Positions 10,662-34,220 of a stretch of 64,000 bases of DNA are shown here, piece by piece. Position 1 is the stretch's first letter; each line of letters starts with the position of its first letter. The position numbers were made by a program, and so were the translations under genes. Where the stretch lies: positions 3,038,001-3,102,000 of the forward strand of contig NZ_CP082928.1 in NCBI RefSeq assembly GCF_023517795.1, read 5' to 3'. The notes under the pieces were generated by a model that was not told the DNA's origin, did no database searches, and was given only the letters and a program-made list of their open reading frames with translations. The DNA comes from Pseudomonas fulva (lineage in GTDB: Bacteria > Pseudomonadota > Gammaproteobacteria > Pseudomonadales > Pseudomonadaceae).

Positions 10662-10926
10662 AGGGTCTGTTGATGCTTCAGCGCGAACCGCGTTGCTGCG
10701 AGAAATCTCGCCAGGCTAGGCGGAGGACGCAGGGAATGGTGTTCCCTTCTCAAGTTCTCCAACGACGCATGGCGAGATTTCCCGCGCAACCCTTAGGGCC
10801 GGGCCCGTTTTAGCGCGATGCTGCGTTTCTCGGTGACTCATTTGGCCAGCCAAACTTCGCACCTCGTGCCTTGCCTCGCGCTAAAACGAGCTCCGGCGCG
10901 CTCGTGCTGAAGCGTCAACAGACCCT
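10662..10926. repeat. 265-bp structured MITE-like element, copy 1
   Basis: A non-coding element with terminal inverted repeats: left AGGGTCTGTTGATGCTTCAG, right end its complement with one change. Inside are further nested inverted repeats: GAGAAATCTCGCCA against TGGCGAGATTTCCC, a small hairpin AGGGAA...TTCCCT, and 10807-10818 against 10876-10887. A second copy lies at 33933-34198. No flanking direct repeat is evident. The right end abuts the DUF3299 gene and contributes two bases of its stop codon. It encodes no protein, so any transposase must act in trans. Confidence 0.85.
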
Positions 10927-11446
10927 AATTGGCCGGCAGTTCGTAAGGGTAGATCTTGTCGGCCGCCAACTGGTAGCCGACTTCCGCCAATTCGCTGCTG
11001 CTGTGCTCGACCTTGAGCGGGCCTTCGATCCAGAACGGCTGGTACAGCGCATCGAGCAGCACGCCCAGTTCGGTGGTGACATGGATGATCTGGTTGGAGG
11101 GCGGTGGTGGCACGTGGATGCAGGCGCCGAAGTAGGGCACCAGCAGGAATTCGGTCACGCGGCCTTCTTCGGTGACGTCCAGTGGCACGATATAGCCGGG
11201 GATCTTTACCTGCTGGCCGTCCATCTCCTTGACCACCGGTGCCGAGGGGAACTGCTGCAGAGAGGCCGCGCCGCCCTCGGACAGCGCATCGCCGAGCTGC
11301 GACATGTCGTGCATCGGCGTCATCTGCGGCACCTGGGGTGGCGCATCCTTGGGAATCAGTTCCTGCCAGTTCAGGGTTCGCAGGTCGGCGGCCCAGAGCG
11401 GCGAGACGAGGGTGAGGAGCAGAGCGGTAAGCAGGACGCGACGCAT
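10925..11446 (-). CDS. DUF3299 periplasmic protein
   Basis: A 173-residue exported protein: signal peptide in residues 1-20 (MRRVLLTALLLTLVSPLWAA), then the DUF3299 hallmarks GYIVPLDVTEEG and LVPYFGACIHVPPPPSNQ. The single Cys and the His beside it could bind metal, but this is not shown. It is the last gene of the minus-strand group that starts with the His-rich DUF2796 protein and includes an ABC transporter; the corresponding P. aeruginosa group is reported to respond to zinc shortage. A terminator precedes it, so expression depends on readthrough or on a weak promoter there. Its TAG stop lies partly inside the repeat at 10662-10926. Confidence 0.85.
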   Translation of the reverse strand: MRRVLLTALLLTLVSPLWAADLRTLNWQELIPKDAPPQVPQMTPMHDMSQLGDALSEGGAASLQQFPSAPVVKEMDGQQVKIPGYIVPLDVTEEGRVTEFLLVPYFGACIHVPPPPSNQIIHVTTELGVLLDALYQPFWIEGPLKVEHSSSELAEVGYQLAADKIYPYELPAN

Positions 11447-11467
11447 GACACTACCTTTGAATTGGAA

Positions 11468-11497
11468 AACGAAGCCGGGCTGATCAGGCCCGGCTTC
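11468..11497 (-). terminator. Terminator after the ABC permease (minus strand)
   Basis: On the minus strand GAAGCCGGGC pairs with GCCCGGCTTC across a seven-base loop and is followed by GTTTTCC. It sits just past the permease stop and ahead of the DUF3299 gene, so it probably attenuates that last gene. Confidence 0.65.
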
Positions 11498-11503
11498 GCG
11501 CAG

Positions 11504-12766
11504 TCACAGCCGGATGGAGAGCCCATCCGCTAACGACTGCCGATACGCGCGCCAGGCCGGCACGCTGCCCATCAGCAGGGCGGCTGCCAGAATAGCGCCG
11601 AGCAGCGTCCACTCATAGGGCGTCGGTGCGCTGAGGGGGAGATACAGGCCGTAATTGGCCTGCACGTAGCCCTGGGCACCGGCAATGCCGGCATACAGCA
11701 GTGCGGTGCCCGCCACCACCCCGGCGGCGGCCAGCGAGAAGGCCTCGAGAACCAGCAGGCTGGCGACATGCCAGGGCCGTGCGCCGACCGAACGGAGGAT
11801 GGCCATCTCCCGGCGCCGCTCGTTGAGGCTGGTGAGAATCGCCGTGAGCATGCCGATCAGCCCGGTCAGCACCACGAACAGCGAGACCACGAACAGCGCC
11901 TTTTCCGCGGTGCCCATCAGGCTCCACAGCTCCTGCAGGGCGACGCCGGGAAGAATCGCCAGCAACGGCTCGCCGCGGTATTCGTTGACCTCGCGCTGCA
12001 CGGCGAAGGTGGCGATCTTGCTCTTCAGGCCGAGCATCGCCGCGGTGATCGCCTTGGGTTGCAGGTCCATGTGTCGCGCCTGCTCGGCGCTGACCTTGCC
12101 GGCACCGCGGGCCGGCACGCCGTTCTGCCAGTCGACGTGCAGCGCCTCCATGCCTTCCAGGGAGATGTGCAGGGTGCGGTCTACCGGCGTGCCGGTGCGC
12201 GCCAGGATACCGCTGACCACGAAAGGCTTGTCGTCGTGCTGCTGCAGGCTGATGGTCGCGACGCCGTGGGACAGCACGATTTTGTCGCCGAGCTTGTAGT
12301 TCAGCGCCTCGGCCACCTCGGCGCCGAGCACCACGTCGAACAGGTCGTGGAAGCGCTCGCCCTGGGCCAGTTGCAGCGATTGCCCGCGACCGTAATGGTA
12401 GTGGTCGAAGTAGTCTTCGTTGGTGCCCATCACCCGGTAGCCGCGGTGCGAGTCGCCCAGGGAAATGGGGATCGCCCAGTCGACCTGGCGGTGGGTGGCG
12501 AGCTTCTCGAAGCTGTCCCAGCGGATGTTGTTGGTGGCGTTACCGATGCGGAACACCGAGTAGAGCAGCAGGTTGACGCTGCCGGAGCGGGCGCCGACGA
12601 TCAGGTCGGTACCGCTGATGGTGTTGGCGAAGCTGGCGCGGGCTTCGGTGCGCACCCGCTCCACGGCGAGCAGCAGGCACACCGACAGGGCGATGGCGAA
12701 TACCGTGAGCAGGGCGGTGAAGCGGCGGTTGGCCAGGCTGGCCAGGGCGAGTCGTAACAGGAACAC
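11504..12766 (-). CDS. FtsX-like ABC transporter permease
   Basis: A 420-residue MacB/LolC-type permease: one N-terminal membrane helix (ALLTVFAIALSVCLLLAV), a large periplasmic domain of about 240 residues, then three C-terminal helices beginning VVSLFVVLTGLIGMLTAIL. The cytoplasmic coupling segment LNERRREMAILRSVGARP is typical of the FtsX family. The GTG start at 12766 lies one base after the ATPase stop and has GGAGG ahead, showing tight co-translation. Such permeases usually move substrates from the inner membrane or periplasm rather than import nutrients. The zinc-linked neighbours suggest a role in envelope metal handling, which is inference. Confidence 0.88.
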   Translation of the reverse strand: MFLLRLALASLANRRFTALLTVFAIALSVCLLLAVERVRTEARASFANTISGTDLIVGARSGSVNLLLYSVFRIGNATNNIRWDSFEKLATHRQVDWAIPISLGDSHRGYRVMGTNEDYFDHYHYGRGQSLQLAQGERFHDLFDVVLGAEVAEALNYKLGDKIVLSHGVATISLQQHDDKPFVVSGILARTGTPVDRTLHISLEGMEALHVDWQNGVPARGAGKVSAEQARHMDLQPKAITAAMLGLKSKIATFAVQREVNEYRGEPLLAILPGVALQELWSLMGTAEKALFVVSLFVVLTGLIGMLTAILTSLNERRREMAILRSVGARPWHVASLLVLEAFSLAAAGVVAGTALLYAGIAGAQGYVQANYGLYLPLSAPTPYEWTLLGAILAAALLMGSVPAWRAYRQSLADGLSIRL

Positions 12767-12767
12767 C

Positions 12768-13475
12768 TCAGACCTCCTGGGGCTTGCTGGCGCGGTTGAG
12801 TTCAGCCAGCGACAGGCTGCGGTCGAACAGTGCGGCCAGGCTCTGGTCGTGGCTGACGAACAACAGGCTGGCGCCGACATCGCGGCATTCGCCGAACAGC
12901 AGCTCGAGAAACGCCTGGCGGGCATCGGCGTCCAGCGCCGAGGTCGGTTCGTCGGCGATCACCAGCTCCGGCTGGCCGATCAGCGCGCGGGCCGCGGCAA
13001 CCCGTTGCTGCTGGCCGATGGACAGCGAATCGGCGCGGCGTTCGAGCAGCTCCGGGCGCAGGCCCAGGTGTTCCAGCAGCTTGCCGGCGGCCCCATCGAC
13101 GCTGCCATAACGCTGCGCCGCGCGTTCGGCGCGCAGGCGGGAAAAGCGGCAGGGCAGCTCGACGTTGTCGCGCACGCTCAAGAATGGCAGCAGATTGAAC
13201 TGCTGGAAGATGTAGCCGGTGTGATCGACGCGAAAGCGATCGCGGCGCGCCGCCGAGAGCGTGGCGAGGTCTTCGCCGAGCAGGCGAATGGTGCCACGCC
13301 CGGGTTTCTGCACGCCGCCGAGCAGGCCGAGCAGGGTGGTCTTGCCGCTGCCGCTGGGGCCCTTGAGAAACAGGGTTTCGCCGCGTTGCAGGTGAAAATG
13401 GGGGATGTCCAGAAGCTCGTCCTGGCCGGGCCAGGCGAAGCCGAGGTCGGTGAGTTCGATCAGTGCTGTGGTCAT
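12768..13475 (-). CDS. ABC transporter ATP-binding protein (MacB/LolD type)
   Basis: A 235-residue ATPase with Walker A GPSGSGKTT, Q-loop GYIFQQFNLLPFLSV, signature LSIGQQQRVAAARA (Ile replacing Gly of LSGGQ), Walker B LVIADEPTSALD and switch His in FVSHDQ. The Q-loop form is typical of LolD/MacB-type enzymes, which pair with FtsX-like permeases such as the next gene. I start at ATG 13475 (MTTALIELTDLGFAW); the upstream reading adds a Pro-rich stretch without family support. Confidence 0.9.
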   Translation of the reverse strand: MTTALIELTDLGFAWPGQDELLDIPHFHLQRGETLFLKGPSGSGKTTLLGLLGGVQKPGRGTIRLLGEDLATLSAARRDRFRVDHTGYIFQQFNLLPFLSVRDNVELPCRFSRLRAERAAQRYGSVDGAAGKLLEHLGLRPELLERRADSLSIGQQQRVAAARALIGQPELVIADEPTSALDADARQAFLELLFGECRDVGASLLFVSHDQSLAALFDRSLSLAELNRASKPQEV

Positions 13476-13603
13476 GGGAACTGCTGGCGCTGGAGGAAAA
13501 AGAAGCAAGTGTGCCAGTCATGGCCACCAAATGCTGAGCCAGAGGGTGTTGCCGAACGTGTGCAGCAGCGGATGCCTCCGGGTGGAGGCCTCCGCCCTGT
13601 CGA

Positions 13604-14200
13604 TCAGAGGGTCAGGCGTGGCTTGGCCGGGGTCGATTCGACACCCTGCTGGCCGCTCGGGCCGATCAGTTGCACGTTGATCTTCTGGGTGGCCGGGAAC
13701 TGCTTGTAGAAGGCCGACAGGTCGAGGGCTTTCAGCTCGCCCGGTTGTTTGCAAGTGAAGCTGTAGTCGGCATCGATATCGCTGTGCTCGTGGTGATGGT
13801 CGTCGCCATCGGCATGCTCACCGTGGCCGTGGTCGTGGTCGTGGTCATGATCATGATCGGCTTCTGCATGGCCGAACAGCGGGCTGCGTACTTCATTTTC
13901 GTTCAGGCTGCAGCCAGCAGCGGCGGGCAGGCTGAACAGCGCCAGGGGCTTTTCCAGCAGGGCGCGGGCGGCGGCGACGGTCTTCTTGTCGGCATCGCTG
14001 GTGGCGGCATGCTCGAAGCCGACGATGTTCATCGCCGGGCTTTGCAGCTCGATTTCCAGGGTGCTGCCTTCCAGCGCCACGTTCAGCGTGGCGACGCCGT
14101 GTTCGTGTTTGCCAAGGCTGCCGTGTTCATGGTCATCGTGGGCCTGGGCGGCGGCCAGGGGCAGCAGGGCGAAGGGCAGGGCAAGCAGCAGGTGGCGCAT
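13604..14200 (-). CDS. DUF2796 His-rich periplasmic zinc-binding protein (ZrgA-like)
   Basis: A 198-residue exported protein. The signal peptide (1-20, cleavage after AQA) is followed by a His/Asp-rich start (HDDHEHG), the family core KHEHGVATLNVALEG, and a dense His/Asp region at about 111-139, evident zinc ligands. The C-terminal part (DYSFTCKQPGELKALDLSAF) closes the domain. DUF2796 proteins include the ZrgA zinc-uptake proteins. It is the first gene of the minus-strand group, and a Zur-like palindrome lies 40-55 bases upstream, so it should be induced when zinc is scarce. The ABC pair behind it is probably in the same transcript, though the 128-base gap is rather long. Confidence 0.9.
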   Translation of the reverse strand: MRHLLLALPFALLPLAAAQAHDDHEHGSLGKHEHGVATLNVALEGSTLEIELQSPAMNIVGFEHAATSDADKKTVAAARALLEKPLALFSLPAAAGCSLNENEVRSPLFGHAEADHDHDHDHDHGHGEHADGDDHHHEHSDIDADYSFTCKQPGELKALDLSAFYKQFPATQKINVQLIGPSGQQGVESTPAKPRLTL

Positions 14201-14234
14201 GGTGGGCTCCGGTAGGGTATGGGTGGAATTAATT

Positions 14235-14254
14235 GATACGTTATAACAAATTTT
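14235..14254. promoter_or_regulatory. Candidate Zur operator between divergent genes
   Basis: The AT-rich palindrome GATACGTTATAACAAATT has a perfect core GTTATAAC, as in gammaproteobacterial Zur boxes. It stands between the His-rich DUF2796 gene (minus) and the small gene at 14330 (plus), in otherwise GC-rich sequence. Both directions could be repressed by zinc-loaded Zur. Confidence 0.6.
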
Positions 14255-14329
14255 TGGCCCTTGGTAGAGCCGGCTTGGTTTGCCCGCGCGGCCGTGGGAG
14301 CATGGCGTATCGAACGAGTGGAGGTGGGC

Positions 14330-14683
14330 ATGGTGCGTATTCGCGGGCGAATCGGCGATTGGCCGGTGGACCTGACGGTGGAACTGGATCCGCAGGATTG
14401 GGCGCAACTGGCGGCGGCCGTGCCGGCCGCTGCGGCGCAGAGCCCGGCGGTGGCCGCGTCGGTGCCGGCGCAGGCCGATCAGGATGGCCAGTGGCAGACG
14501 GTGCTGGAGCTGTTGCGCCTTGCCGGACGCATCGAAGGGCCGCAGCTGATGGCGCAACTGGCGGCGCTGGCCGGCGGTGAAGTGGCGGGCAAGCGCCTGC
14601 TGGTGCGCCTGCGCCACTGCGAGCAGGTGCGCATGGAAGCCGGCGCAGATGCGCCGGTTTATTGCTGGGTGGGAGAGGCGTAG
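14330..14683 (+). CDS. Conserved hypothetical protein next to the zinc locus
   Basis: A 117-residue soluble protein that I know only as a conserved Pseudomonas hypothetical. It begins MVRIRGRIGDWPVDLTVELD, has an Ala-rich middle and ends CEQVRMEAGADAPVYCWVGEA. No signal peptide or membrane segment is seen. GGAGG stands before the chosen ATG; the frame is open upstream to 14261 but across the promoter region. It is divergent from the DUF2796 gene across the Zur-like site. The IS30 element begins about 45 bases past its stop. Confidence 0.65.
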   Translation: MVRIRGRIGDWPVDLTVELDPQDWAQLAAAVPAAAAQSPAVAASVPAQADQDGQWQTVLELLRLAGRIEGPQLMAQLAALAGGEVAGKRLLVRLRHCEQVRMEAGADAPVYCWVGEA

Positions 14684-14698
14684 TTCAGCTGCCTGGGT

Positions 14699-14729
14699 AA
14701 TCTGAGCATGTGTACGGGCAACTACAAGG
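14699..14729. repeat. Left fragment of a repeat interrupted by the IS30 element
   Basis: Bases here (GAGCATGTGTACGGGCAACT and the following ACAAGG) match the element at 19913-20025 and, inverted, the right end of 44182-44384. The matching remainder reappears beyond the insertion at about 16094-16127 (AGATAAAGCCCGGCAT then GATCGTGAACAGG). So the IS landed inside an older palindromic repeat. Confidence 0.65.
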
Positions 14730-15959
14730 GGCGGATTCAATTGGTCAACGCAACACCATAATTCCTGTGTAAGCAGGTAGGAGTGTTGCAGATGAAGCAA
14801 AGACCTCGAATCTATTACACCGAAAGCCAGAAAGCGCTGATGTGGGCGCACTGGAGAAGAGGAGACTCTCTCCAGCAGATCGCCCAGCTCTTTGATCGCA
14901 ACCACTCCTCGATACAGCGCATTTTGGCGCAGACAGGAGGGATACGACCGCCGATACGTAAACGCTCAAGGCTCGCGCTTACGATGGCAGAGCGTGAGGA
15001 AATATCGAGATCTCTCGTTGCAGGGCATTCGATTCGCCTGATTGCTCTACAACTTGGCAGAGCGCCCTCGACAGTTAGTCGGGAGATAAGCCGCAACGGC
15101 GGGTTGCATCACTATCGAGCCAGCTATGCAGATCAAGCTGCATGGGATCGAGCCTGCCGCCCTAAGGTCTGCAAACTTGTCCAAGCTCCGCAGTTAGCGC
15201 AACTTGTGGCTCAGCGGTTGCAGATGCAGTGGTCACCAGAACAAATAGCTGGTTGGCTACAGCGTACTTACCCAAATGAGCCGAGCTATCACGTGTCCCA
15301 CGAGACGATCTATCGCAGCCTTTTCATACAGGCACGTGGCGCCTTGAAAAAAGAGCTGCTTGAGCATTTACGGCGCACTCGAGCCATGCGTCGCTCACGC
15401 CATCACACCCAAAAAACAGATAACCACGGGCAAATTCTTGATACGGTCTCTATCAGTAAGAGGCCCGCTGAAGTAGCTGACCGTGCTGTACCTGGTCATT
15501 GGGAAGGTGACCTACTGTGTGGCAGTAAGAACAGCCAGATCGCCACGCTTGTCGAGCGTCACAGCCGCTATCTGATGTTGGTGAAAGTAGCCGGCAAAGA
15601 TACGGCTACGGTAATCGATGCGCTTATAGAAAATGCTCAAAAGCTACCTCAAGAGCTTTATCGATCTCTGACCTGGGATCGGGGCAAAGAGATGGCTGCG
15701 CACAAGCGATTTACCTTGGCAACGAACATCCAAGTCTACTTCTGCGACCCCAAGTCCCCATGGCAACGTGGCTCAAACGAAAATACGAATGGGCTGTTGA
15801 GGCAGTACTTTCCCAAAGGCATGAATCTATCTGAGTACTCTCAAGACAAGCTCGATGAGGTAGCAAGACTATTAAATGAGCGACCACGTAAAACACTCGA
15901 CTTTGCGACTCCTGCCGAGTGCTTTAATCAGTACGTTGCGTCGACCGGTTGAATCCGCC
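14730..15959 (+). mobile_element. IS30-family insertion sequence, 1230 bp, apparently intact
   Basis: Bounded by 25-bp inverted repeats with 22 matches. The left end starts GGCGGATTCAATTGGTCAAC and the right end is its near complement, ending ACCGGTTGAATCCGCC. One full-length DDE transposase occupies the inside. Base composition is clearly less GC-rich than the flanks, marking it as acquired. A duplicated target cannot be defined with confidence; IS30 elements usually duplicate only 2-3 bases. Confidence 0.92.
14792..15952 (+). CDS. IS30-family transposase
   Basis: A 386-residue transposase. Residues 5-50 form a helix-turn-helix (SLQQIAQLFDRNHSSIQRIL), and a second, IS30-type HTH follows (IRLIALQLGRAPSTVSREISRN). 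The catalytic DDE core is visible: Asp in GHWEGDLLCG, Asp in SLTWDRGKEMA and Glu in RGSNENTNGLLRQ, followed by the typical YFPKG. All three are present, so the enzyme may be active. TAGGAG lies 8 bases before the ATG at 14792. It is the only gene of the element. Confidence 0.95.
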   Translation: MKQRPRIYYTESQKALMWAHWRRGDSLQQIAQLFDRNHSSIQRILAQTGGIRPPIRKRSRLALTMAEREEISRSLVAGHSIRLIALQLGRAPSTVSREISRNGGLHHYRASYADQAAWDRACRPKVCKLVQAPQLAQLVAQRLQMQWSPEQIAGWLQRTYPNEPSYHVSHETIYRSLFIQARGALKKELLEHLRRTRAMRRSRHHTQKTDNHGQILDTVSISKRPAEVADRAVPGHWEGDLLCGSKNSQIATLVERHSRYLMLVKVAGKDTATVIDALIENAQKLPQELYRSLTWDRGKEMAAHKRFTLATNIQVYFCDPKSPWQRGSNENTNGLLRQYFPKGMNLSEYSQDKLDEVARLLNERPRKTLDFATPAECFNQYVASTG

Positions 15960-15988
15960 GGCGAAAGCAGACATTGTTGTTTTACCCG

Positions 15989-16051
15989 TGGGAACGGGCG
16001 GGGACGCCTAGTCCATGCCCGGGATTTTTCGCGGGCATGGCCCGCTCCCAC
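15989..16051. repeat. REP-like palindrome, copy B
   Basis: Arms GTGGGAACGGGC and GCCCGCTCCCAC with the same asymmetric block GGGGACGCCTAGTCCATG as copy A. It lies between the IS30 right end and the cnoX terminus. Confidence 0.8.
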
Positions 16052-16093
16052 AGATACTGCGCCGATGCCCGCTACCGCCGTGTTGCAGTCAAA

Positions 16094-16127
16094 ATAGATA
16101 AAGCCCGGCATGAAGATCGTGAACAGG
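16094..16127. repeat. Right fragment of the repeat split by IS30
   Basis: AGATAAAGCCCGGCAT followed by a GATCGTGAACAGG end, matching the right end of the intact element at 19913-20025. Confidence 0.6.
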
Positions 16128-16132
16128 TTTTC

Positions 16133-17005
16133 TTAGTACAGTGCCTGGTACACCCGGCGGCGGTAGGTGGTGACCAGCGGGTTGTCGTTGCCGAGCAGGT
16201 CGAATACCTGCAGCAGGGTCTTGTGCGGCAGGCCGTCGGCGTAATTGCGGTTGCGCACGAACAGCTTCAGCAAGCCATCCAGGGCCGGCTCGTACTGTTG
16301 GCGGGCGAGCTGCTGGATGGCCAGTTGGTAGGCGGCTTCGTCATCCTCGCCATTCTGGGCCAGGCGGCTCTTCAGGGTGGCGGCGTCCGGCAGGTCGGCG
16401 GCCTGGCGCAGGAAGGTGATCTGCGCACGGGCGCCAGCGAGGGCCTGCTTGTGTTCATCGCCCTTCACCGCGCCGAGCACCTGCTCGGCTTCGCTCAGAT
16501 CGCCCCGTTCGGCCACACAGCGGGCGTAGAGAATCAGCGCCGCGGCGTTTTCGTTGTTTTCCGTCAGCAGTTCTTTGAGCGCGGCCTCGGCCTCACCGAT
16601 GCGGCCCTCGGCAAAGGCCGTCTGGGCGACTTCCAGCAGGTCGGCCTGGGGGGCTTGCGGCTCGGCGACGTGAGGTTGCAGCAGGGCACGAATCGCCGAC
16701 TCCGGCTGGGCGCCCTGGAAGCCATCGACCGGCTGGCCGTTCTTGAACAGCACCACGGTCGGCAGACTGCGAATGCCGAAGCGGGCGACGATGTCCTGCT
16801 CGATGTCGCAATTGACCTTGGCCAGCAGCAGCTCGCCCTGGTAGCCCTCGGTGATCTGCGCCAGCACCGGCATCAGCGCCTTGCAGGGTGCGCACCACTC
16901 GGCCCAGAAGTCGACGAGCACCGGTTTGTCGAACGAGTTCTCGATCACCAGCTGTTCAAACTGGGCGGCGCCATTGATATCGAAGATGTAGGGGGTGTCG
17001 CTCAT
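16133..17005 (-). CDS. cnoX: CnoX/YbbN chaperedoxin: thioredoxin domain plus TPR
   Basis: A 290-residue cytoplasmic protein. Residues 1 to about 112 form a thioredoxin fold with the full active site WCAPC (Cys38 and Cys41) and the cis-Pro in RSLPTVVLF. Residues 118-290 are helical TPR-like repeats. This matches CnoX (YbbN), which holds unfolded proteins for GroEL and DnaK under bleach stress. E. coli CnoX has lost the WCGPC pair and lacks oxidoreductase activity; the pair is kept here, so this version may be redox-active. It is transcribed alone toward the REP and IS30 region. Confidence 0.88.
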   Translation of the reverse strand: MSDTPYIFDINGAAQFEQLVIENSFDKPVLVDFWAEWCAPCKALMPVLAQITEGYQGELLLAKVNCDIEQDIVARFGIRSLPTVVLFKNGQPVDGFQGAQPESAIRALLQPHVAEPQAPQADLLEVAQTAFAEGRIGEAEAALKELLTENNENAAALILYARCVAERGDLSEAEQVLGAVKGDEHKQALAGARAQITFLRQAADLPDAATLKSRLAQNGEDDEAAYQLAIQQLARQQYEPALDGLLKLFVRNRNYADGLPHKTLLQVFDLLGNDNPLVTTYRRRVYQALY

Positions 17006-17079
17006 GGTCGGTCTCTGTCCGGGCGAAAGGTGGGTGTGACTCTATAGGTGTGACTATAAGTGTGGGCGTTGCCGCAAGG

Positions 17080-17742
17080 CTACAAGTGCACCGCGGCAGC
17101 GTGATACAGGCTGACGTGGCGGAAGGTTTCCGGCTCGGCCAGGTCGGGCCAGGTGCAGCCCTGCAAGCCGGCGATGCGCCGGTAGCGCGGGTGGTCGAAG
17201 TCGCGCACCCGGGAGTCGGCCACCAGCACCTCGCTGGCATGTTCGAGCACCCGGTCGAGCAGCGGCAGGTTGCTGCGGTCGTAGAGCACGTCGGCGACGA
17301 TGGCCAGGTCGTAATCGTGGCGCTCGGCGTAGAGATCGCTGGAGTAAGCGAGCTGCACGCCGTTGAGCTCGGCGTTGGCCCGGCAGGCGGCCAGGGCCAG
17401 CGGGTCCAGGTCGCAGGCCACCACCTGGGCGGCGCCTGCACGGGCTGCGGCGATGGCGGCCACGCCCGAGCCGGCGCCCAGGTCCAGCACCCGTTTGCCG
17501 CGCACCCATTCGGGGTGGCGCGCCAGCCAGTCCACCAGCACCAGGCCGCTGGCCCAGCAGAAGCACCAGTAGGGTGGCTCCTCGAGAATGCGCCGGGTTT
17601 CCTCCGGGCTGAAGCAGCGGTCCATGTTCGCCGGGTCGATCAGCCACAGGCGCAGGTCGGTATCCGGCAGAGTGGTAGCGCTCAGTCGTGCATCGCCGAG
17701 CAGATCGCCCAGGGCGGCCTGTAGATCCGGCGGTGGCGTCAC
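17080..17742 (-). CDS. Class I SAM-dependent methyltransferase (ETFB lysine methyltransferase-like)
   Basis: A 220-residue methyltransferase with motif I RVLDLGAGSGVAAIAAA (from residue 84), the acidic ribose-binding DLDP and motif IV-type DLAIVADVLYD. The N-terminal region with PPYWCFCWASGLVLVDWL is characteristic of the METTL20/ETFB-lysine methyltransferase group; I infer a protein-lysine substrate but it is unproven. The GTG start overlaps the stop of the upstream ybaY-like gene in GTGA, so the two are translationally coupled. Confidence 0.82.
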   Translation of the reverse strand: MTPPPDLQAALGDLLGDARLSATTLPDTDLRLWLIDPANMDRCFSPEETRRILEEPPYWCFCWASGLVLVDWLARHPEWVRGKRVLDLGAGSGVAAIAAARAGAAQVVACDLDPLALAACRANAELNGVQLAYSSDLYAERHDYDLAIVADVLYDRSNLPLLDRVLEHASEVLVADSRVRDFDHPRYRRIAGLQGCTWPDLAEPETFRHVSLYHAAAVHL

Positions 17743-18179: not shown

Positions 18180-18326
18180 CGGATGATCCTGGCAAACGGG
18201 TAATGCCTGGATTCTCGCCATAGCGGGCGGTGAATGCAAAGGAAAGCGCCCAAGCCCGGGTGCTTGGCGCCGGGCGGTGCTGATGCGCTACCATGCGGGC
18301 TTTCTCGCCTGCGATCGTTTCCAGCC

Positions 18327-18791: not shown

Positions 18792-18792
18792 G

Positions 18793-20025: not shown

Positions 20026-20097
20026 CGCTCAGGCAGGGCCGCCGTGCGCTGGCGCGGCAAGTATGGTAAAACGCTGTCGGCTGCGACAAGCAGCCAC

Positions 20098-20250
20098 ACG
20101 TTCTCAGGGCGGGGTGTAATTCCCCACCGGCGGTAATGCTGCGCAACGCAGCTAGCCCGCGAGCGCCCGGTACGGCACCAGCCGCCCGGGGTCGAGCAGA
20201 TCCGGTGTGATTCCGGAGCCGACGGTATAGTCCGGATGAAGAGAGAGCGG
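20098..20250 (+). ncRNA. FMN riboswitch (RFN element)
   Basis: The conserved RFN sequence blocks are present in order: TTCTCAGGGCGGGGTG, CCCCACCGGCGGTAAT, GCCCGCGAGCG, GGTCGAGCAGATCCGGTG, GATTCCGGAGCCGACGGTA and AGTCCGGATGAAGAGAG. It lies about 95 bases ahead of the type II lumazine synthase gene. With FMN bound it should lower expression of that gene and probably the following ribE and ribB genes. Confidence 0.97.
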
Positions 20251-20344
20251 GATTGCCTGACGAGGCGGCCCTCCGGCTGCTGCATGTCCGTACCATCCCT
20301 ATCGATCCAAGCTGCCCTGTTTTAACCATAAACAGGAGTCGAAC

Positions 20345-26533: not shown

Positions 26534-26551
26534 GCCAGTGGCGCCGCGCCT

Positions 26552-27826: not shown

Positions 27827-28133
27827 GGGGTCTCCTTTGACGGCTGATGTTCGCCATCCCGGCGAACACCCTGGAGCCCCGATGATACCTGGCTTGTAAC
27901 CAGATGTGTGGGCGTAGATGGCCGCCCGCCCATGGCAGAACGATGGCAGAAAGGCGGAACCGAAGCGGCGGCGGAGGGTCGAGTAACCATGGGTCGGAAG
28001 GCTGCAGGGCGCATGCGTCCTGGCATGAGGGGCATCGTTAGAGGATGCTCCAGCCTCCGGCATTGGACGGCCGATGCGCAATGCATCCGGCCAGCTCGAT
28101 CCGCCAACGGCGGTCGTCAACTGGAGTCGACAT
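27827..28133. other. Intergenic region between antiporter and osmoprotectant operon
   Basis: About 307 bases with the divergent promoters of the antiporter and the permease operon. A hairpin TGTTCGCC/GGCGAACA lies at 27848-27868 and a short palindrome CTGGCTTGTAACCAG at 27888-27902. I see no gene, and no clear sigma-70 promoter could be fixed. Confidence 0.5.
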
Positions 28134-28847
28134 ATGCTGAAAAGCTTCGGCAAGGTGCTGCTGGGCGCTGTTGCGCTGATCGCGGTACTGGCCTTGCTGG
28201 TCCACTGGATCACCCCGGCGGTGCTCGCGCAGCACCGCGAAGACCTCATCTACTACCTGCAGGCGCACCTGTATCTGGTGTTCGTGTCGATGCTGGCAGC
28301 CCTGGCGGTCGGCATCCCGGCGGGCATCCTGCTCAGCCGGCCCGGCCGCGAGCACAGCGCCGAGCGCTTCATGCAGGTGTTCAACGTCGGCAACACCGTG
28401 CCGCCATTGGCGGTGCTGGCCATCGCGCTCTCGGTGGTCGGCATCGGCAACGGCCCGGCGATCCTTGCCCTGTTCCTCGCCTCGCTGCTGCCCATCGTGC
28501 GCAATACCTACGAAGGCCTGCGCAACGTGCCGGGTTCGTTGAAGGAGGCCGCCACCGGCATCGGCATGACGCCGCGCCAGGCGTTGTGGCGGGTCGAGCT
28601 GCCCAACGCGGTGCCGATCATCGTCGGTGGCATCCGCGTGGCGCTGGCGCTGAACGTCGGGACCGCGCCGCTGGTGTTCCTGATCGGCGCCAACAGCCTC
28701 GGCAGCCTGATCTTTCCCGCCATCGCCCTGGAAAACCAACCGCTGCTGATACTCGGCGCCGCTGCCACGGCTCTGCTGGCGTTGCTGCTCGACGGCCTGG
28801 TGGCGGCCACCAGCCGTTTCTGGTTCGAGCGTGGGGTGGCCCGTTGA
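28134..28847 (+). CDS. Osmoprotectant ABC transporter permease (OpuC/OsmU type), first
   Basis: A 237-residue permease with five to six membrane segments and the EAA-type loop EAATGIGMTPRQALWRVELP typical of binding-protein-dependent importers of quaternary amines. It begins the four-gene operon permease, binding protein, permease, ATPase. GGAG lies about 7 bases before the ATG at 28134. The likely substrates are glycine betaine, carnitine or related compatible solutes. Confidence 0.88.
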   Translation: MLKSFGKVLLGAVALIAVLALLVHWITPAVLAQHREDLIYYLQAHLYLVFVSMLAALAVGIPAGILLSRPGREHSAERFMQVFNVGNTVPPLAVLAIALSVVGIGNGPAILALFLASLLPIVRNTYEGLRNVPGSLKEAATGIGMTPRQALWRVELPNAVPIIVGGIRVALALNVGTAPLVFLIGANSLGSLIFPAIALENQPLLILGAAATALLALLLDGLVAATSRFWFERGVAR

Positions 28848-28855
28848 AGGAAACC

Positions 28856-29749
28856 ATGATGAAGTCTCTCGTTCTGTGCCTCGGCCTGCTGCTGGCAGTG
28901 ACCAGCCAGGCTGCGGAAATCCGTATCGGTGCCAAGGTGTTCACCGAGCAGGTGATCCTCTCCGAACTCACTGCCCAGTACCTGCGCCCCCACGGCTACC
29001 AGGCACGCATCGTCGGCAATCTGGGCAGCACCATCGCCTGGAACGGCATGAAGAGCGGCCAGCTGGACCTGACCTGGGAATACACCGGCACCTCGCTGGT
29101 GGCCTACAACAAGGTCACCGAGCGCCTCGACAAGGAAGCTGCCTACGGGCGCGTCAAGGAGCTGGACGCCAAGAGCGGCGCGATCTGGCTGGCGCCCTCG
29201 CGTTTCAACAACACCTACGCCCTGGCGCTGCCGGAAAAGGTCGCCGAGGAGAATCCGGATATCCACACCATCAGCGACCTCGCCCAGGCTCTGAAAACGC
29301 CGGGCAAGGGCAACCGCCTGCTGGCCCTGGACATCGAGTTCGCCAACCGCTCCGATGGTCTGGACGGGCTGGTCAAGGAGTACGGCCTGACCTTCACCCG
29401 TAACGAGATTCGCCAGATGGACCCGGGCCTGGTCTACACCGCGTTGCGCAACGGCCAGGTGTTCGTCGGCCTGGTGTACACCACCGACGGCCGCCTGGAT
29501 TCCTTCGGCCTGCGCCTGCTCGAGGACGACCGCAAGTACTTCCCGGACTACACCGCTGCGCCGGTGGTCAACGCCGACTACCTCAAGCAGCACCCGGAAC
29601 TCGAGGAGCTGCTCAAGCCGCTCGCCGAGCGCCTGGACGACGCCACCATGCGCCGCCTCAACGCCCGCGTCGACGTCGATCGCGAAACGCCGGCTGCAGT
29701 GGCCGCCGACTTCCTGCGTCAGGAAAAACTGATCGGGGAGGGCAACTGA
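28856..29749 (+). CDS. Glycine betaine/choline-type substrate-binding protein
   Basis: A 297-residue periplasmic protein with a signal peptide ending SQAA and an OpuAC-type fold (EIRIGAKVFTEQVILSELTA, NLGSTIAWNGMKSGQLDLTWEYTG, DDRKYFPDYTAAPVV). Type II OpuAC proteins bind trimethylammonium groups through an aromatic cage; several Tyr/Trp are present in the right segments. Two adjacent ATG codons (28856 and 28859) both fit the AAGGA upstream. It sits between the two permease genes. Confidence 0.88.
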   Translation: MMKSLVLCLGLLLAVTSQAAEIRIGAKVFTEQVILSELTAQYLRPHGYQARIVGNLGSTIAWNGMKSGQLDLTWEYTGTSLVAYNKVTERLDKEAAYGRVKELDAKSGAIWLAPSRFNNTYALALPEKVAEENPDIHTISDLAQALKTPGKGNRLLALDIEFANRSDGLDGLVKEYGLTFTRNEIRQMDPGLVYTALRNGQVFVGLVYTTDGRLDSFGLRLLEDDRKYFPDYTAAPVVNADYLKQHPELEELLKPLAERLDDATMRRLNARVDVDRETPAAVAADFLRQEKLIGEGN

Positions 29750-29750
29750 C

Positions 29751-30410
29751 ATGGATTTCATGACCGCTTTCCAGCATATCGACTGGAGCCAGGTGCTCAG
29801 CCTGACCGTCGAGCATATCGCCCTGGTCGGCATCGCCGTGGGCCTGGCGATTCTCATCGGCGTGCCGCTGGGCATTCTGATGACCCGCTTCCCCTGGCTC
29901 GCCGGGCCGCTGCAGGGCCTGGCCACCGTGGTGCTGACCCTGCCGGCCATCGCCCTGTTCGGCCTGTTGCTGCCGTTCTACTCGCAGTTCGGCCAGGGCC
30001 TCGGCCCATTGCCGGCGGTGACCGCGGTGTTCCTGTATTCGCTGCTGCCGATCCTGCGCAACACCTACCTGGCGCTGACCAGCGTCGAGCCGGGCATCCG
30101 CGAGGCGGGCAAGGGCATCGGCATGAGTTTCTGGCAGCGCCTGCGCATGGTCGACCTGCCGATCGCCGTGCCGGTGATCCTGGCCGGGGTGCGCACCGCC
30201 GTGGTGATGAACATCGGCGTGATGACCATCGCCGCCACCATCGGTGCCGGCGGCCTCGGCGTGCTGATTCTCACCGCCATCAGCCGCAGCGACATGGCGA
30301 CCCTTTTCGTTGGTGCGGTGCTGGTGAGCCTGCTCGCCATCGTCGCCGACCTGTTTTTGCAGTGGCTGCAGAAAACGCTCACTCCCCGTGGCCTGAAAGC
30401 CGCCCACTGA
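29751..30410 (+). CDS. Osmoprotectant ABC transporter permease, second
   Basis: A 219-residue membrane protein like the first permease, with EAGKGIGMSFWQRLRMVDLP as coupling loop and about five hydrophobic segments. It starts one base after the binding-protein stop and ends 10 bases before the ATPase gene. Two permeases make a heterodimeric channel, as in OpuC and OsmU. Confidence 0.88.
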   Translation: MDFMTAFQHIDWSQVLSLTVEHIALVGIAVGLAILIGVPLGILMTRFPWLAGPLQGLATVVLTLPAIALFGLLLPFYSQFGQGLGPLPAVTAVFLYSLLPILRNTYLALTSVEPGIREAGKGIGMSFWQRLRMVDLPIAVPVILAGVRTAVVMNIGVMTIAATIGAGGLGVLILTAISRSDMATLFVGAVLVSLLAIVADLFLQWLQKTLTPRGLKAAH

Positions 30411-30420
30411 GGACTCGAAC

Positions 30421-31575
30421 ATGATTCAACTCGACAAACTGACCAAGAAATTCCAGCAGAAAGGCAAGGATGTCGTCGCGGTAAATGAAGTCAGCCTGAC
30501 CGTCGACGAAGGCCAGATCTGCGTGTTCCTCGGCCCCTCGGGTTGTGGCAAGAGCACCACGCTGAAGATGATCAACCGGCTGATCGCGCCCACCTCCGGG
30601 CGCGTGCTGATCAACGGCGAGGACACCACCGGCATCGACGAAGTGACCCTGCGTCGCAACATCGGCTACGTGATCCAGCAGATCGGCCTGTTTCCCAACA
30701 TGACCATCGAGGAAAACATCACCGTGGTGCCCAAGCTGCTCGGTTGGGACAGGAAGCGCTGCCACGAGCGCGCCGTGGAGCTGATGAGCATGGTGCAACT
30801 CGAGCCCAAACAGTACCTGTCGCGTTACCCGCGCGAGCTGTCCGGCGGCCAGCAGCAGCGTATCGGGGTGATCCGCGCCCTGGCGGCCGACGCCCCGGTG
30901 CTGCTGATGGACGAGCCCTTCGGCGCCGTCGACCCGGTCAACCGCGACGCCATCCAGAACGAGTTCTTCCAGATGCAGCGCGCGCTGAACAAGACGGTGA
31001 TCATGGTCAGCCACGACATCGACGAGGCCATCAAGCTGGGCGACAAGATCGCCATCTTCAAGGACGGCACGCTGCTCCAGTTCGACCATCCGGACACCCT
31101 GCTGGCGCACCCGGCGGACGACTTCGTCAGCGGCTTCGTCGGCCAGGACAGCACACTCAAGCGCCTGCTGCTGATCCGCGCCGAAGACGCCGCCGACGAT
31201 GCACCATCGATTCTGGCCGAAACCAGCATCGCCGATGCCGTGGAGTTGATGGAAGAGCATGACCGCCGCCACCTGGTGGTCACCGATGCCGGCAGGAAGG
31301 CCCTGGGCTACGTGCGCCGCCGCGATATGCGTGGCCAGGGCGGTGCGGTGCAGCCTTTCGTGCAACCGTTCAACGCCACCGCCGCCCACGATGAACACCT
31401 GCGCATCCTGCTGTCGCGCATGTACGAGTTCAACCGCTCGTGGTTGCCGGTGCTCAGCGCCGACAACGACTTCCTTGGCGAGGTCACCCAGGAATCCATC
31501 GCCGACTACCTCAGCTCCGGTCGCTCGCGGGGCAAGAGCAGCATCGTCTCGCCGGCCGAGCAGATCGCCAGCTGA
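30421..31575 (+). CDS. Osmoprotectant ABC transporter ATPase with tandem CBS domains
   Basis: A 384-residue ATPase: Walker A GPSGCGKST (38-46), Q-loop GYVIQQIGLFPNMTI, signature LSGGQQQRIGVIRA, Walker B VLLMDEPFGAVD and switch His in MVSHDIDEA. Residues about 260-375 form two CBS domains (LAETSIADAVELMEEHDRR ... RSWLPVLSADNDFLGEVTQE), which in OpuA-type importers sense ionic strength or cyclic di-AMP. It closes the operon. Confidence 0.92.
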   Translation: MIQLDKLTKKFQQKGKDVVAVNEVSLTVDEGQICVFLGPSGCGKSTTLKMINRLIAPTSGRVLINGEDTTGIDEVTLRRNIGYVIQQIGLFPNMTIEENITVVPKLLGWDRKRCHERAVELMSMVQLEPKQYLSRYPRELSGGQQQRIGVIRALAADAPVLLMDEPFGAVDPVNRDAIQNEFFQMQRALNKTVIMVSHDIDEAIKLGDKIAIFKDGTLLQFDHPDTLLAHPADDFVSGFVGQDSTLKRLLLIRAEDAADDAPSILAETSIADAVELMEEHDRRHLVVTDAGRKALGYVRRRDMRGQGGAVQPFVQPFNATAAHDEHLRILLSRMYEFNRSWLPVLSADNDFLGEVTQESIADYLSSGRSRGKSSIVSPAEQIAS

Positions 31576-31584
31576 CGAATGGCT

Positions 31585-31611
31585 CGAAGCCGGTCAGGCA
31601 TGGCCGGCTTC
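31585..31611. terminator. Hairpin between convergent osmoprotectant operon and cupin gene
   Basis: CGAAGCCGG pairs with CCGGCTTCG over a nine-base loop, in the 54-base gap between two convergent genes. No T-run follows, so as a terminator it is weak. Confidence 0.4.
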
Positions 31612-31629
31612 GGGCGTACCCGTGTTCGT

Positions 31630-31989
31630 TCAGGCCTGTTCGAAGATCACGTAGACCTTGCGGCACGGCTCCAGCACTTCCCAGGTGCCGATGAAACCGG
31701 CCGGGATCACGAAGCGGTCACCGGCCCGCACGGTCTTGGCATTGCCGTCGTTGTCACGCAGCACCGACACGCCCTGGAGGATTTCGCAGTACTCGTGCTC
31801 GCTGTAGCTGACCGTCCATTGGCCGACCTCGCCCTCCCAGATGCCGCTGTTGAATTGCCCGCAGGGGCTGGCGTAATGGTTGCGCACCTGCTGCTGCGGG
31901 TCGCCCTTGAGGATCTTTTCGGCGGCGGGGCGGTAGCTTTCGGTGCTGCCGGTGCTTTGCGCGAAATCGACGATCTGCTGGATATTCAT
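31630..31989 (-). CDS. Cupin domain protein (DUF861, ureidoglycine-aminohydrolase-like)
   Basis: A 119-residue single cupin: GIWEGEVGQWTVSYSEHEYCEILQG holds the first metal-binding motif (His and Glu), and VRAGDRFVIPAGFIGTWEVLEP the second half. Members of this group include EutQ-like and ureidoglycine aminohydrolase-like proteins, but function is often unknown. The ATG at 31989 with GGAAG ahead is the likely start; a TTG six codons upstream is less so. Confidence 0.78.
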   Translation of the reverse strand: MNIQQIVDFAQSTGSTESYRPAAEKILKGDPQQQVRNHYASPCGQFNSGIWEGEVGQWTVSYSEHEYCEILQGVSVLRDNDGNAKTVRAGDRFVIPAGFIGTWEVLEPCRKVYVIFEQA

Positions 31990-32184
31990 ATTCGCTTCCC
32001 TGGTCAACGTGAACGTACGTCGATCTTCCCATGGCCATTGCGGGCCAGGGGCGGCGCGGCGTAACGATTTGTTCGAGTCTATGTTTAAGAAAATGAACGC
32101 AGCAAGGGCATTTGGCCACCAACTGTCAAGAATATTGAAAACTCTGCGAGCGCTGGTTTAGTGTGGTTCGCAGTTTTCGGCCGG

Positions 32185-32325
32185 TAGGGCCCCTTGAAAA
32201 ACGTAGGCGAGGCCGCTGGCGCGAGGCGAAAACAGGCGAAGACGTGGCGCTTACGTGCGGTAATGAGCCTTTCTCAGCCTGTTTAACGCCGCGATGGCAA
32301 CGCAGTCGTTTTTAGGGGTGTCCTA
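32185..32325. repeat. 141-bp MITE-like repeat upstream of kauB
   Basis: Imperfect terminal inverted repeats, TAGGGCCCCTTGAAAAACG at the left and CGTTTTTAGGGGTGTCCTA at the right. The interior, read on the minus strand, has AACAGGCTGAGAAAGGCTCA, GCACGTAAG and CGCCTGTTTT in the same order as the element at 63656-63827. It lies in the 390-base gap between the cupin gene and kauB, 54 bases before the kauB start, so it may affect the promoter. Confidence 0.75.
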
Positions 32326-32379
32326 TAGCGGCTCACCACAGGCGCCCATGCGCCTTCACCGACCAGAGAGGATGATCAG

Positions 32380-33873
32380 ATGACCGGTTTGACCCGTACC
32401 GATTGGGAACAGCGTGCCAAGGATCTGAAAATCGAGACCCGCGCCTTCGTGCAGGGCGAATACCAGGCTGCCCAGAGCGGTGAGACCTTCGATTGCATCA
32501 GCCCGGTCGACGGCCGGGTGCTTGGCCAGGTCGCCAGCTGCGACCTGGCGGACGCCGAGCTGGCGGTGAAATCGGCCCGTGCCGCCTTCGATTCCGGGGT
32601 GTGGTCGCGTATTGCCCCGGCCAAGCGCAAGGCCAAGATGATCCGCTTCGCCGAGCTGCTGATGGCCAACGCCGAGGAGCTGGCGCTGCTGGAAACCCTG
32701 GACATGGGCAAGCCGATCAGCGATTCCCTGGGCATCGACATTCCGGCCGCGGCCAACGCCATTCGCTGGAGCGCCGAGGCCATCGACAAGGTCTACGACG
32801 AAGTCGCCCCGACGCCGCACGACCAGCTTGGCCTGGTGACCCGCGAGCCGGTTGGCGTGGTGGCAGCCATCGTGCCGTGGAACTTCCCACTGCTGATGTC
32901 CAGCTGGAAGCTCGGCCCGGCCCTGGCCACCGGCAACTCGGTGATCCTCAAGCCCTCCGAGAAGTCGCCGCTGACCGCCATTCGGGTGGCCGCCCTGGCC
33001 GTCGAGGCCGGTATACCGGCTGGTGTGTTCAACGTGCTGCCCGGTTACGGCCACACCGTCGGCAAGGCCCTGGCGCTGCACATGGACGTCGACACCATCG
33101 TGTTCACCGGTTCGACCAAGATCGCCAAGCAGCTGATGATCTACGCCGGCGAATCGAACATGAAGCGCGTGTGGCTGGAGGCGGGCGGCAAGAGCCCCAA
33201 CATCGTCTTTGCCGATGCGCCGGACCTCAAGGCCGCTGCCGAGTCCGCCGCCAGCGCCATCGCCTTCAACCAAGGCGAAGTGTGCACCGCCGGCTCGCGG
33301 CTGCTGGTGGAAAATTCCATCAAGGAGCGCTTCCTGCCGATGGTGGTCGAGGCCCTGAAAGGCTGGCAGGCCGGCAACCCGCTGGACCCGGACACCAACG
33401 TCGGCGCCCTGGTCGACACCCAGCAGATGGACACCGTGCTGCGCTATATCGAGGCCGGGCACAAGGACGGCGCCAAGCTGCTGATCGGCGGCAAGCGCAC
33501 CCTGGAGGAGAGCGGCGGCACCTACGTCGAGCCGACCATCTTCGACGGCGTGACCAATGCCATGACCATCGCCCGCGAAGAAATCTTTGGCCCGGTGCTC
33601 TCGGTGATCGGTTTCGACAGCGCCGAGCAGGCCGTGCAGATCGCCAACGACACCGTGTATGGCCTGGCCGCGGCGGTGTGGACGGCGGACATCTCCAAGG
33701 CGCACCTGACCGCCCGCGCTCTGCGCGCCGGCAGCGTGTGGGTCAACCAGTACGACGGCGGCGACATGACCGCGCCGTTCGGGGGCTTCAAGCAGTCGGG
33801 CAACGGCCGTGACAAGTCGCTGCACGCCTTCGACAAGTACACCGAACTGAAAGCCACCTGGATCAAGCTCTGA
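32380..33873 (+). CDS. kauB: Aldehyde dehydrogenase KauB (4-guanidino/4-aminobutyraldehyde dehydrogenase)
   Basis: A 497-residue NAD(P)-dependent aldehyde dehydrogenase, full length and very like P. aeruginosa KauB, which oxidises 4-guanidinobutyraldehyde, 4-aminobutyraldehyde and related aldehydes from arginine and polyamine breakdown. Catalytic residues are seen: Asn168 in VPWNFP, Glu267 in LEAGGKSPN and Cys302 in GEVCTAGS; NAD contact is FTGSTKIAK. The neighbourhood (pauB-like oxidase, MocR regulator, dad genes, pauR) is the amine-catabolic region. GAGAGGATG lies before the ATG. Confidence 0.93.
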   Translation: MTGLTRTDWEQRAKDLKIETRAFVQGEYQAAQSGETFDCISPVDGRVLGQVASCDLADAELAVKSARAAFDSGVWSRIAPAKRKAKMIRFAELLMANAEELALLETLDMGKPISDSLGIDIPAAANAIRWSAEAIDKVYDEVAPTPHDQLGLVTREPVGVVAAIVPWNFPLLMSSWKLGPALATGNSVILKPSEKSPLTAIRVAALAVEAGIPAGVFNVLPGYGHTVGKALALHMDVDTIVFTGSTKIAKQLMIYAGESNMKRVWLEAGGKSPNIVFADAPDLKAAAESAASAIAFNQGEVCTAGSRLLVENSIKERFLPMVVEALKGWQAGNPLDPDTNVGALVDTQQMDTVLRYIEAGHKDGAKLLIGGKRTLEESGGTYVEPTIFDGVTNAMTIAREEIFGPVLSVIGFDSAEQAVQIANDTVYGLAAAVWTADISKAHLTARALRAGSVWVNQYDGGDMTAPFGGFKQSGNGRDKSLHAFDKYTELKATWIKL

Positions 33874-33887
33874 TCCTGCAGGGATGA

Positions 33888-33907
33888 GGCTCGCCAGCCG
33901 GCGAGCC
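33888..33907 (+). terminator. Small hairpin after kauB
   Basis: GGCTCGCC pairs with GGCGAGCC over a four-base loop, 14 bases past the kauB stop, with no T-run. It precedes the larger split hairpin at 33919-34211. Confidence 0.4.
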
Positions 33908-33918
33908 AGTGCAGACCG

Positions 33919-34220
33919 GCGGCCGGGCTCCTAGGGTCTGTTGCCATTTCAACGCGAGCCGCGTTGCCGCGATAAATCTCGCCAGGCGAGGCGGAGGACG
34001 CAGGGAATGGTATTCCCTTTTCAAGTCCTCCAACGACGCATGGCGAGATTTATCGCACAACCCGAAGGGCCGGGCCCGTTTTGCCGCGATACTGCGTTTC
34101 TCGCCGGCTCATTTAACCCATTAAACTTCGCGGCTCGTGCCTTGCCTCGCGGCAAAACGGGCTCCGGCGCGGCCGTGCGTGAAACGGCAACAGACCCTGG
34201 AGCCCGGCCGCTGTGCTTTT
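33919..34220 (+). terminator. Hairpin arms of a kauB terminator split by a MITE
   Basis: GCGGCCGGGCTCC (33919-33931) and GGAGCCCGGCCGC (34199-34211) are perfect 13-base complements, followed by TGTGCTTTT. Between them sits the 266-bp repeat. Without it, the arms form a strong rho-independent terminator with a loop of one or a few bases. Confidence 0.75.
33933..34198. repeat. 266-bp structured MITE-like element, copy 2
   Basis: Same family as 10662-10926. The left end AGGGTCTGTTGCCATTTCA complements the right end TGAAACGGCAACAGACCCT with one change. Internal hairpins match copy 1 in position: GATAAATCTCGCCA against TGGCGAGATTTATC, and 34078-34089 against 34147-34158. The two copies differ at paired positions in ways that keep pairing. 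No direct repeat flanks it. Confidence 0.87.

Follow-up and report, generated by a model that had tools for sequence, protein, structure and literature searches.

Two copies of a non-coding element lie in the window analysed here, a stretch of 64,000 nucleotides from Pseudomonas fulva (contig NZ_CP082928.1, positions 3038001–3102000), and they belong to a dispersed family found in Pseudomonas and other Gammaproteobacteria. The family is a unit of about 266 bp that folds into a Y shape, whose stems and ends covary and which is present or absent at orthologous sites. It is inserted without target duplication into YY|AG-like targets, where overwriting shifts the sequence towards CCT|AGG up to about 3 bp from the junction. 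That the family is non-autonomous mobile DNA recognized by its fold, and not by a fixed end sequence, is a reading that we judge to be evenly balanced between right and wrong.

The two elements had been placed at 10662–10926 and 33933–34198 in a preliminary description of this DNA, and both coordinates proved exact. The arm B strands reported there as perfectly paired were found at their positions as exact reverse complements in each copy. The terminal repeats of each copy also pair, with one imperfect pair per repeat that matches the bases written as Y and R in that description. Copies 1 and 2 are 85% identical across 246 bases, and their parts are as follows.

10662..10926, + strand: element copy 1, 265 bp, ends AGGG...CCCT, flanked by an OmpW-family gene and a DUF3299 gene
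10662..10680, + strand: copy 1 outer stem, left strand (left end), from fold and alignment
10692..10790, + strand: copy 1 arm A, coordinates transferred by hand from the alignment
10790..10798, + strand: copy 1 tiny junction hairpin CCC-TTA-GGG, from sequence and fold
10798..10897, + strand: copy 1 arm B, which holds the stem 10807–10818 / 10876–10887, mapped by hand
10908..10926, + strand: copy 1 outer stem, right strand (right end), from sequence and fold
33933..34198, + strand: element copy 2, 266 bp, flanked by an aldehyde dehydrogenase gene (32380–33873) and an MFS transporter gene (34213–35376)
33933..33951, + strand: copy 2 outer stem, left strand (left end), from fold and alignment
33963..34061, + strand: copy 2 arm A, mapped by hand from the alignment
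34061..34069, + strand: copy 2 tiny junction hairpin CCC-GAA-GGG, from sequence and fold
34069..34168, + strand: copy 2 arm B, which holds the stem 34078–34089 / 34147–34158, mapped by hand
34180..34198, + strand: copy 2 outer stem, right strand (right end), from sequence and fold
33920..34210, no strand assigned: palindrome GGCCGGGCTC / GAGCCCGGCC with copy 2 at its centre, uninterrupted in three relatives

A search of the own genome (5.44 Mb, one contig) with copy 1 as the query gave 31 matches, which comprised 19 full-length copies, one copy cut to 189 bp and matched in two pieces, and further matches that were partial copies or shadows on the opposite strand. The genome also contains six hairpin-only forms of 43–65 bp, solo ends, and one armless form, L194 (L and G numbers are our labels for loci and genomes). 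The element was matched in 15 of 57 genomes and in 119 of 298 genomes of the same genus, the own genome being included in both counts; the 298-genome scan scored two candidates per genome, and its copy numbers are lower bounds. At least 120 stretches were obtained by a pattern scan of the named genomes. Among the 80 matches listed, the hosts were mostly Pseudomonas, together with Salinicola, Chromohalobacter, Halopseudomonas, Stutzerimonas, Alcanivorax, Aliikangiella, a Lysobacteraceae assembly, and a few unclassified. Matches on plasmids numbered five among 72,556 records, one of which is a Citrobacter copy with strongly diverged stems and a similar fold, and no match was found among 50,697 phage records. 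The length was much alike in distant hosts, with 94 of 106 delineated elements measuring 263–284 bp, paired flanks included.

The 20 own copies were aligned over 295 columns. Consensus and single-sequence folding indicated one Y shape in which the two ends pair as the outer stem, with arm A, a CCC-NNN-GGG hairpin, and arm B between them. The folding energy of copy 2 was −154.8 kcal/mol as RNA (z −9.9) and −97.4 kcal/mol as DNA (z −10.8), and none of 200 shuffles was as good in either case. At the consensus level the two strands had nearly equal energies (−153.3 and −153.5). When five copies were folded singly, the opposite strand was better in four (by 0.3 to 12.3 kcal/mol) and worse in one (by 7.1). 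The apices of arms A and B appeared similar by eye as reverse complements, and the element matched its own opposite strand at 72% over 102 bases. Variant architectures were also observed. L156, L157, L037, and L048 (G003) form a subfamily of 238–241 bp in which arm B is swapped for a shorter, different stretch. In L017, L018, L076, and L163 a different paired block takes the place of the middle of arm A on both strands (TCTCGCCA versus the TGGCCTCC type), the arm base and apex being alike; arm swapping and block copying are candidate readings of this replacement.

Covariation was investigated in an alignment (A2) of 61 copies from the own and other genomes, which gave 60 distinct rows. Left out of it were the own copies L004 (its element identical to that of L003), L010 and L012 (insertions), and L019 (truncated), as well as relatives' copies with long insertions or lineage-specific ends, and duplicates. 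Pairing was retained in 97.9% of the 5336 stem cells. At least one double change was found in 60 of the 89 stem pairs, compared with 27.1 ± 2.4 in shuffles, and double-changed cells numbered 474, compared with 110.8 ± 8.5 after shuffling. Relatedness among the copies is preserved not by the shuffles but by a control in which the 3′ partners were slid by 1–3 columns; this control gave 12–20 pairs with double changes, and 36–44% of its cells were still paired. The stem covariation first noticed between the two window copies became stronger as more copies were added, exceeding the control that keeps relatedness. Some pairs occurred in three Watson-Crick states; for instance, columns 156/232 were GC in 27 copies, UA in 17, and AU in 15. 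The ends follow the same pattern: the sequences differ between lineages (AGGGTCTGTTG, GGGGGCGTTCTCAATT, AGGGTGTGTCATCAATGA, AGGGCCTGTCATCGGTC, and CTAGGGCGTGTTTATC), yet in every case the two ends of the element pair perfectly or nearly so.

Conservation across lineages was estimated from ten distant copies, each compared with copy 2. The number of bases kept was 13–18 of 18 at the junction and 40–46 of 56 in upper arm A, and upper arm B was intermediate (29–35 of 50–51). The arm B stem kept 14–23 of 36 bases, and the outer stem kept 15–21 of 36–38 in the six copies whose ends differ. The better conservation of the junction and upper arms than of the outer and lower arm stems speaks for constraint. 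The conserved part is the junction and portions of the apices, not the unpaired bases as such.

Insertion was analysed by comparing filled sites with empty ones. Empty sites were usable for 18 of the 20 own copies (all except L015 and L016) and for 11 of 14 relatives' copies (all except L359, L145, and L147). The own-site target pairs L001-L102, L005-L115, L010-L121, L015-L130, and L008-L134 were dropped as scars or poorly alignable, alignments with more than six gaps near the junction were skipped in the relatives' set, and gaps in the empty site were counted as differences in both sets; for L009, the sites taken as empty may be paralogous. The joined flanks of own copies matched three close relatives and one further genome, and at the best empty sites 240 query bases aligned to 240 target bases. 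In the preliminary description the element was rightly taken as non-coding and possibly mobile. No target duplication was detected at the 18 own and 11 relatives' copies aligned to empty sites, and small junction gaps were present at some sites, such as one base at L020 and three at L017. The targets were YY|AG-like: at the 18 own sites a pyrimidine occupied −1 in 17, A occupied +1 in 13, and G occupied +2 in 10; pooling both sets gave 18 of 27 sites with A at +1 and 18 of 29 with G at +2.

The bases adjoining the element differed between filled and empty sites. At own sites, 39 of 108 positions differed within 3 bp of the junction, compared with 377 of 4212 at 4–120 bp (p = 3e-14), and the independent set of 11 sites of other genomes gave 28 of 66 near the junction, compared with 274 of 2574. 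Changed non-consensus bases mostly became the matching base of CCT|AGG, which is the sequence formed by joining the element's own ends: this was the case for 19 of 23 at own sites and 15 of 17 in the independent set, giving 34 of 40 over the pooled 29 sites (p = 2.2e-11), compared with 18 of 64 at five control offsets. Over the same 29 sites, conversion of non-consensus bases was 14/17 at −1, 5/11 at −2, and 2/15 at −3 on the left side, and 6/9 at +1, 5/11 at +2, and 2/16 at +3 on the right side.

Palindromes were rejected as a general target, being clear at 2 of 18 sites (overall p = 0.078). Palindrome extension, considered as a source of complementarity between the flanks, gave no gain at distance 1 (10 of 18 pairs in filled sites; empty mean 9.4). 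Filled and empty sites had 9 versus 5.0 complementary pairs at distance 2 and 5 versus 3.2 at distance 3. Among the pooled flank pairs, 21 were gained and 10 lost; because 16 of the gained pairs are the CCT/AGG pair, the CCT|AGG sequence accounts for most of the gain.

On the fold-recognition reading, the element would move as a folded single strand of DNA, or else as a circle or hairpin whose ends are joined (...CCCT|AGGG...), and would be placed into the target by a trans-acting enzyme. Two forces would probably keep the fold: copies unable to fold would cease multiplying, and template switching in the long palindrome would copy mutations from arm to arm in resident copies. Candidates for this enzyme include Y1 transposases, tyrosine recombinases, and host functions.

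Several observations weigh against this reading. No movement of the element was observed. In the 61 closer copies the mean majority base was lower in unpaired than in paired columns (0.829 versus 0.889), and among own paralogs unpaired columns change at least as fast as paired ones. Part of the covariation arises in resident copies, without need of selection for movement. At the junction, consensus bases were also lost (21 of 89 at the 29 sites), and at distance 4 the second set differed at 7 of 22 positions, gaps counted; some of the change is thus undirected, and the 3-bp limit is not sharp. A circle, a hairpin, and carry-over of donor flanks cannot be told apart, because the ends are inverted repeats and all three routes predict the same CCT|AGG, which is moreover both the joined-end sequence and a frequent flank of resident copies. 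Part of the junction pattern would be accounted for by an element one base longer per side together with a loss of 2 bp of target. The search for a mobilizer was also negative. Among 53 places in the own genome that matched the end pattern with at most three mismatches, read by eye, no two unpaired ends faced each other within 10 kb. The element was absent from the 3.2–3.3 kb around all five PF01797 (Y1_Tnp) matches in the genome. No obvious transposase was seen in the 20 largest clusters of 576 open reading frames (ORFs) from 120 loci, which were inspected by eye without a family scan; they resemble housekeeping genes and antisense frames, apart from one orthologous locus. The places matching the end pattern were known copies, hairpin-only forms, and solo ends, with no kilobase-size parent; this search of the own genome thus found no long insertion sequence whose ends might by themselves account for the pairing.

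It is unlikely, although not to be dismissed lightly, that the fold has no function and that we are dealing with an ordinary short mobile repeat, its covariation being made mainly by template switching between the arms. Template switching as a palindrome-matching mechanism is described in the part of PMC8794818 cited here, and palindrome correction had been named from the beginning as another cause of matched changes. This idea was strengthened by vertically inherited copies at 13 loci, where 10 of 49 changed stem pairs were fully compensated in a hand tally that excluded gap columns (3/22, 0/3, 4/12 with one more partly, and 3/12 by group); a hand estimate of the chance expectation is about one or two of 49. 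One locus shows an exchange of T-A to A-T. Compensation thus occurs in place, which fits template switching, and template-switch correction of the palindrome probably contributes to the covariation. The variability of unpaired columns among the closer copies also favours this account. The mismatches cut both ways: G-U exceeded A-C by 206 to 43 over all columns, which argues against a purely mutational origin, but the two were close (55 to 38, by hand subtraction) once six columns were removed. In addition, 39 of the 49 changed pairs in resident copies were single or incompletely compensated, the junction and upper arm A outlast the outer stem and arm B stem across lineages, and the element's length is much alike in distant hosts, all of which count against this account. 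The ratio of double to single changes climbed with divergence from 0.58 to 3.21 (16 own paralogs, 120 non-independent comparisons), indicating that recent changes are more often uncompensated and old ones compensated, as expected if multiplying lineages keep the fold. The rising ratio would reflect a fold kept in multiplying lineages plus arm copying in residents, which these data do not separate cleanly. Selection on folding, as originally proposed, is upheld in part, with conservation across lineages speaking for constraint and compensation in resident copies for templated correction.

We consider it improbable that the element is a transcribed structured RNA, either a small RNA or part of an mRNA acting in cis, that was spread by unrelated mobility and is kept for its RNA fold. 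Its RNA fold is strong, G-U is frequent at columns 23/256 and 27/252 of the outer stem when read on the + strand and exceeds A-C over all columns, and closely spaced genes flank the element at some loci according to crude gene calls. However, the consensus energy is nearly the same on both strands, the arms are alike as reverse complements, and close relatives differ in their copies, some of which have shrunk to hairpins or scars. Nor is there an Rfam family for it. At the gathering threshold the window yielded nothing for the element, the sole hit being an FMN riboswitch elsewhere (20096–20252, + strand; 109.5 bits versus a gathering score of 66.2), and four loci searched at E ≤ 2 gave nine weak matches, all under the gathering scores. 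This agrees with the initial view that the element has no named family, and no description of it was found in open-licence papers, supplements not covered.

A miniature inverted-repeat transposable element (MITE), that is, an element derived by deletion from a known insertion sequence, with ends recognized by its transposase, is very improbable: the small size, the terminal inverted repeats, the position of 11 of 20 copies in intergenic DNA (7 more overlapping 49–91 bp of a possibly over-extended ORF start), and an IS630-family transposase gene about 850 bp from the Citrobacter copy would suit it, but it is strained by empty sites without target duplication, by end sequences that are not fixed and lie as far apart as AGGGTCTGTTG and GGGGGCGTTCTCAATT, and by the lack of an autonomous partner with these ends in the own genome.

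Among known systems, the element works most like SMR-A of Haloquadratum walsbyi, from which its size and target separate it. SMR-A, in the portion of PMC3119063 cited here, is about 110 bp long, occurs in up to 54 copies per genome, and targets palindromes of PATEs and IS605-type elements; its terminal inverted repeats are described as unrelated to known transposons and its mobilizer as not known. Both are short, non-coding, and multi-copy, with prominent terminal inverted repeats and no target duplication (PMC3119063, same portion). Inverted repeats are likewise present on our element, and no related transposon was found in the own genome, to which this search was confined. Unlike SMR-A, it is about 266 bp long and Y-shaped, with YY|AG-like targets, covarying stems, and a bacterial host, and a clear palindrome was the target at 2 of 18 sites (p = 0.078).

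Being palindromic, dispersed, and abundant in Pseudomonas, the element also resembles repetitive extragenic palindromic (REP) sequences, REPINs, BIMEs, and the terminal inverted repeat families of TIRYTs, as partly described in PMC3733652, where a REP-associated tyrosine transposase (RAYT) is reported to recognize and cleave single-stranded REP DNA. It differs from REP in carrying no GTAG or CGTC tag by eye, its ends being AGGG...CCCT or lineage-specific, in being several times longer, and in its absence around all five Y1_Tnp loci. The Y1 transposase genes L316 and L318 lie near inverted repeats of the GGGGCTTTAGCCCC and GTGGGAGCGGGC types, respectively, and are perhaps RAYTs with their own REPs. 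Terminal inverted repeats, lack of coding capacity, and multiple copies are shared with MITEs (passages of PMC10969869; R0, R2, and others of P. fluorescens in PMC2718517). MITEs are generally known to retain the parent's end sequence and usually to make target duplications (see also PMC10969869), whereas the present element makes none and its ends are not fixed. The stem-loop families Ppu-1, Ppu-4, and Ppu-9, listed at 617, 81, and 124 bp in part of PMC2267715, are similarly repeated, structured, and marked intergenic in P. putida. They are set apart here by listed size and might overlap parts of the element.

Tn916-like elements use tyrosine recombinases and coupling sequences, and a 6-bp window is exchanged at their junctions. 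Strand-biased circularizing integrative elements also use tyrosine recombinases; they carry 6 bp to one side and exchange a 6-bp junction window without ordinary target duplication (PMC10214605 and PMC9345347, in the sections cited). The junction exchange at our element, which likewise makes no target duplication, may be of a comparable kind. In contrast to both of these, its changes fall on both sides, fade with distance, and favour one sequence. They lie mostly within 3 bp on each side of the junction and are graded and mostly one-directional, with a less sharp boundary in the second set.

At some sites, relatives carry scars, such as the 16-bp AGGGTCAACAGACCCT at the copy 1 site in G001. 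When a 721-bp query consisting of one fluorescens-type copy and its flanks was used, all 119 genomes searched matched somewhere, by element or flank. The copy was complete in five of them (G005, G016, G021, G067, and G079) and shrunk to the outer-stem hairpin in G059 and G092 (sequence) and G068 (coordinates only); in many other genomes both flanks matched with about three bases between them.

Crude ORF calls placed 11 of the 20 own copies in intergenic DNA, and 7 overlapped 49–91 bp of an ORF start that is possibly over-extended; L010 overlapped an ORF by 270 bp, and L009 lay inside one. L009 splits a gene whose homologue in G001 is unbroken and has an isochorismatase domain. G185 has a copy (L136) at the same point of an isochorismatase-like gene, so that two species share the site, and one outer-stem pair is G-C in one copy and A-T in the other. 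The in-frame join at L009 raised the idea of a self-splicing insert, which was rejected: the GTG CTG codons of the homologues become GGT TGG, and no other support was found. At L020 and L140 the copy apparently lies within the stop/start codon overlap of two tandem genes, as judged by eye from empty sites, and is kept in two species. L197, L258, L273, L281, and L285 represent a copy retained at one orthologous locus, where the flanks ACAACC/GGTTGT pair in four of the five; we take the surrounding genes to be pepA and lptF. Elsewhere in the window, a second dispersed repeat, CCTGTGGGAGCGGGCGGGGACGCCTAGTCCATGCCCGCGA plus its complement, was observed at 9726–9779, 15984–16033, and 43034–43078; it resembles the REP dimers of P. 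putida.

More tentatively, and with some doubt, we propose that these elements represent a class of Gammaproteobacterial mobile DNA that is recognized purely by its Y fold, its ends being free to diverge completely. A joined-ends intermediate (CCCT|AGGG) would overwrite up to 3 bp of target per side instead of duplicating it, by means of an enzyme whose type has so far not been associated with elements like these. We know of no described element with insertion chemistry in this form. Covariation usually counts as strong evidence for a functional RNA, but the sequence that it marks in this case is mobile DNA, the very ends included. Since part of the covariation arises in resident copies and fits template switching, the family is suited to separating selection from mutation, and its copies, once placed on the species tree, offer a natural test bed for these two sources of covariation. 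The divergent ends and the overwriting towards CCT|AGG point to an unusual insertion chemistry, and finding the enzyme behind it has become a concrete task.

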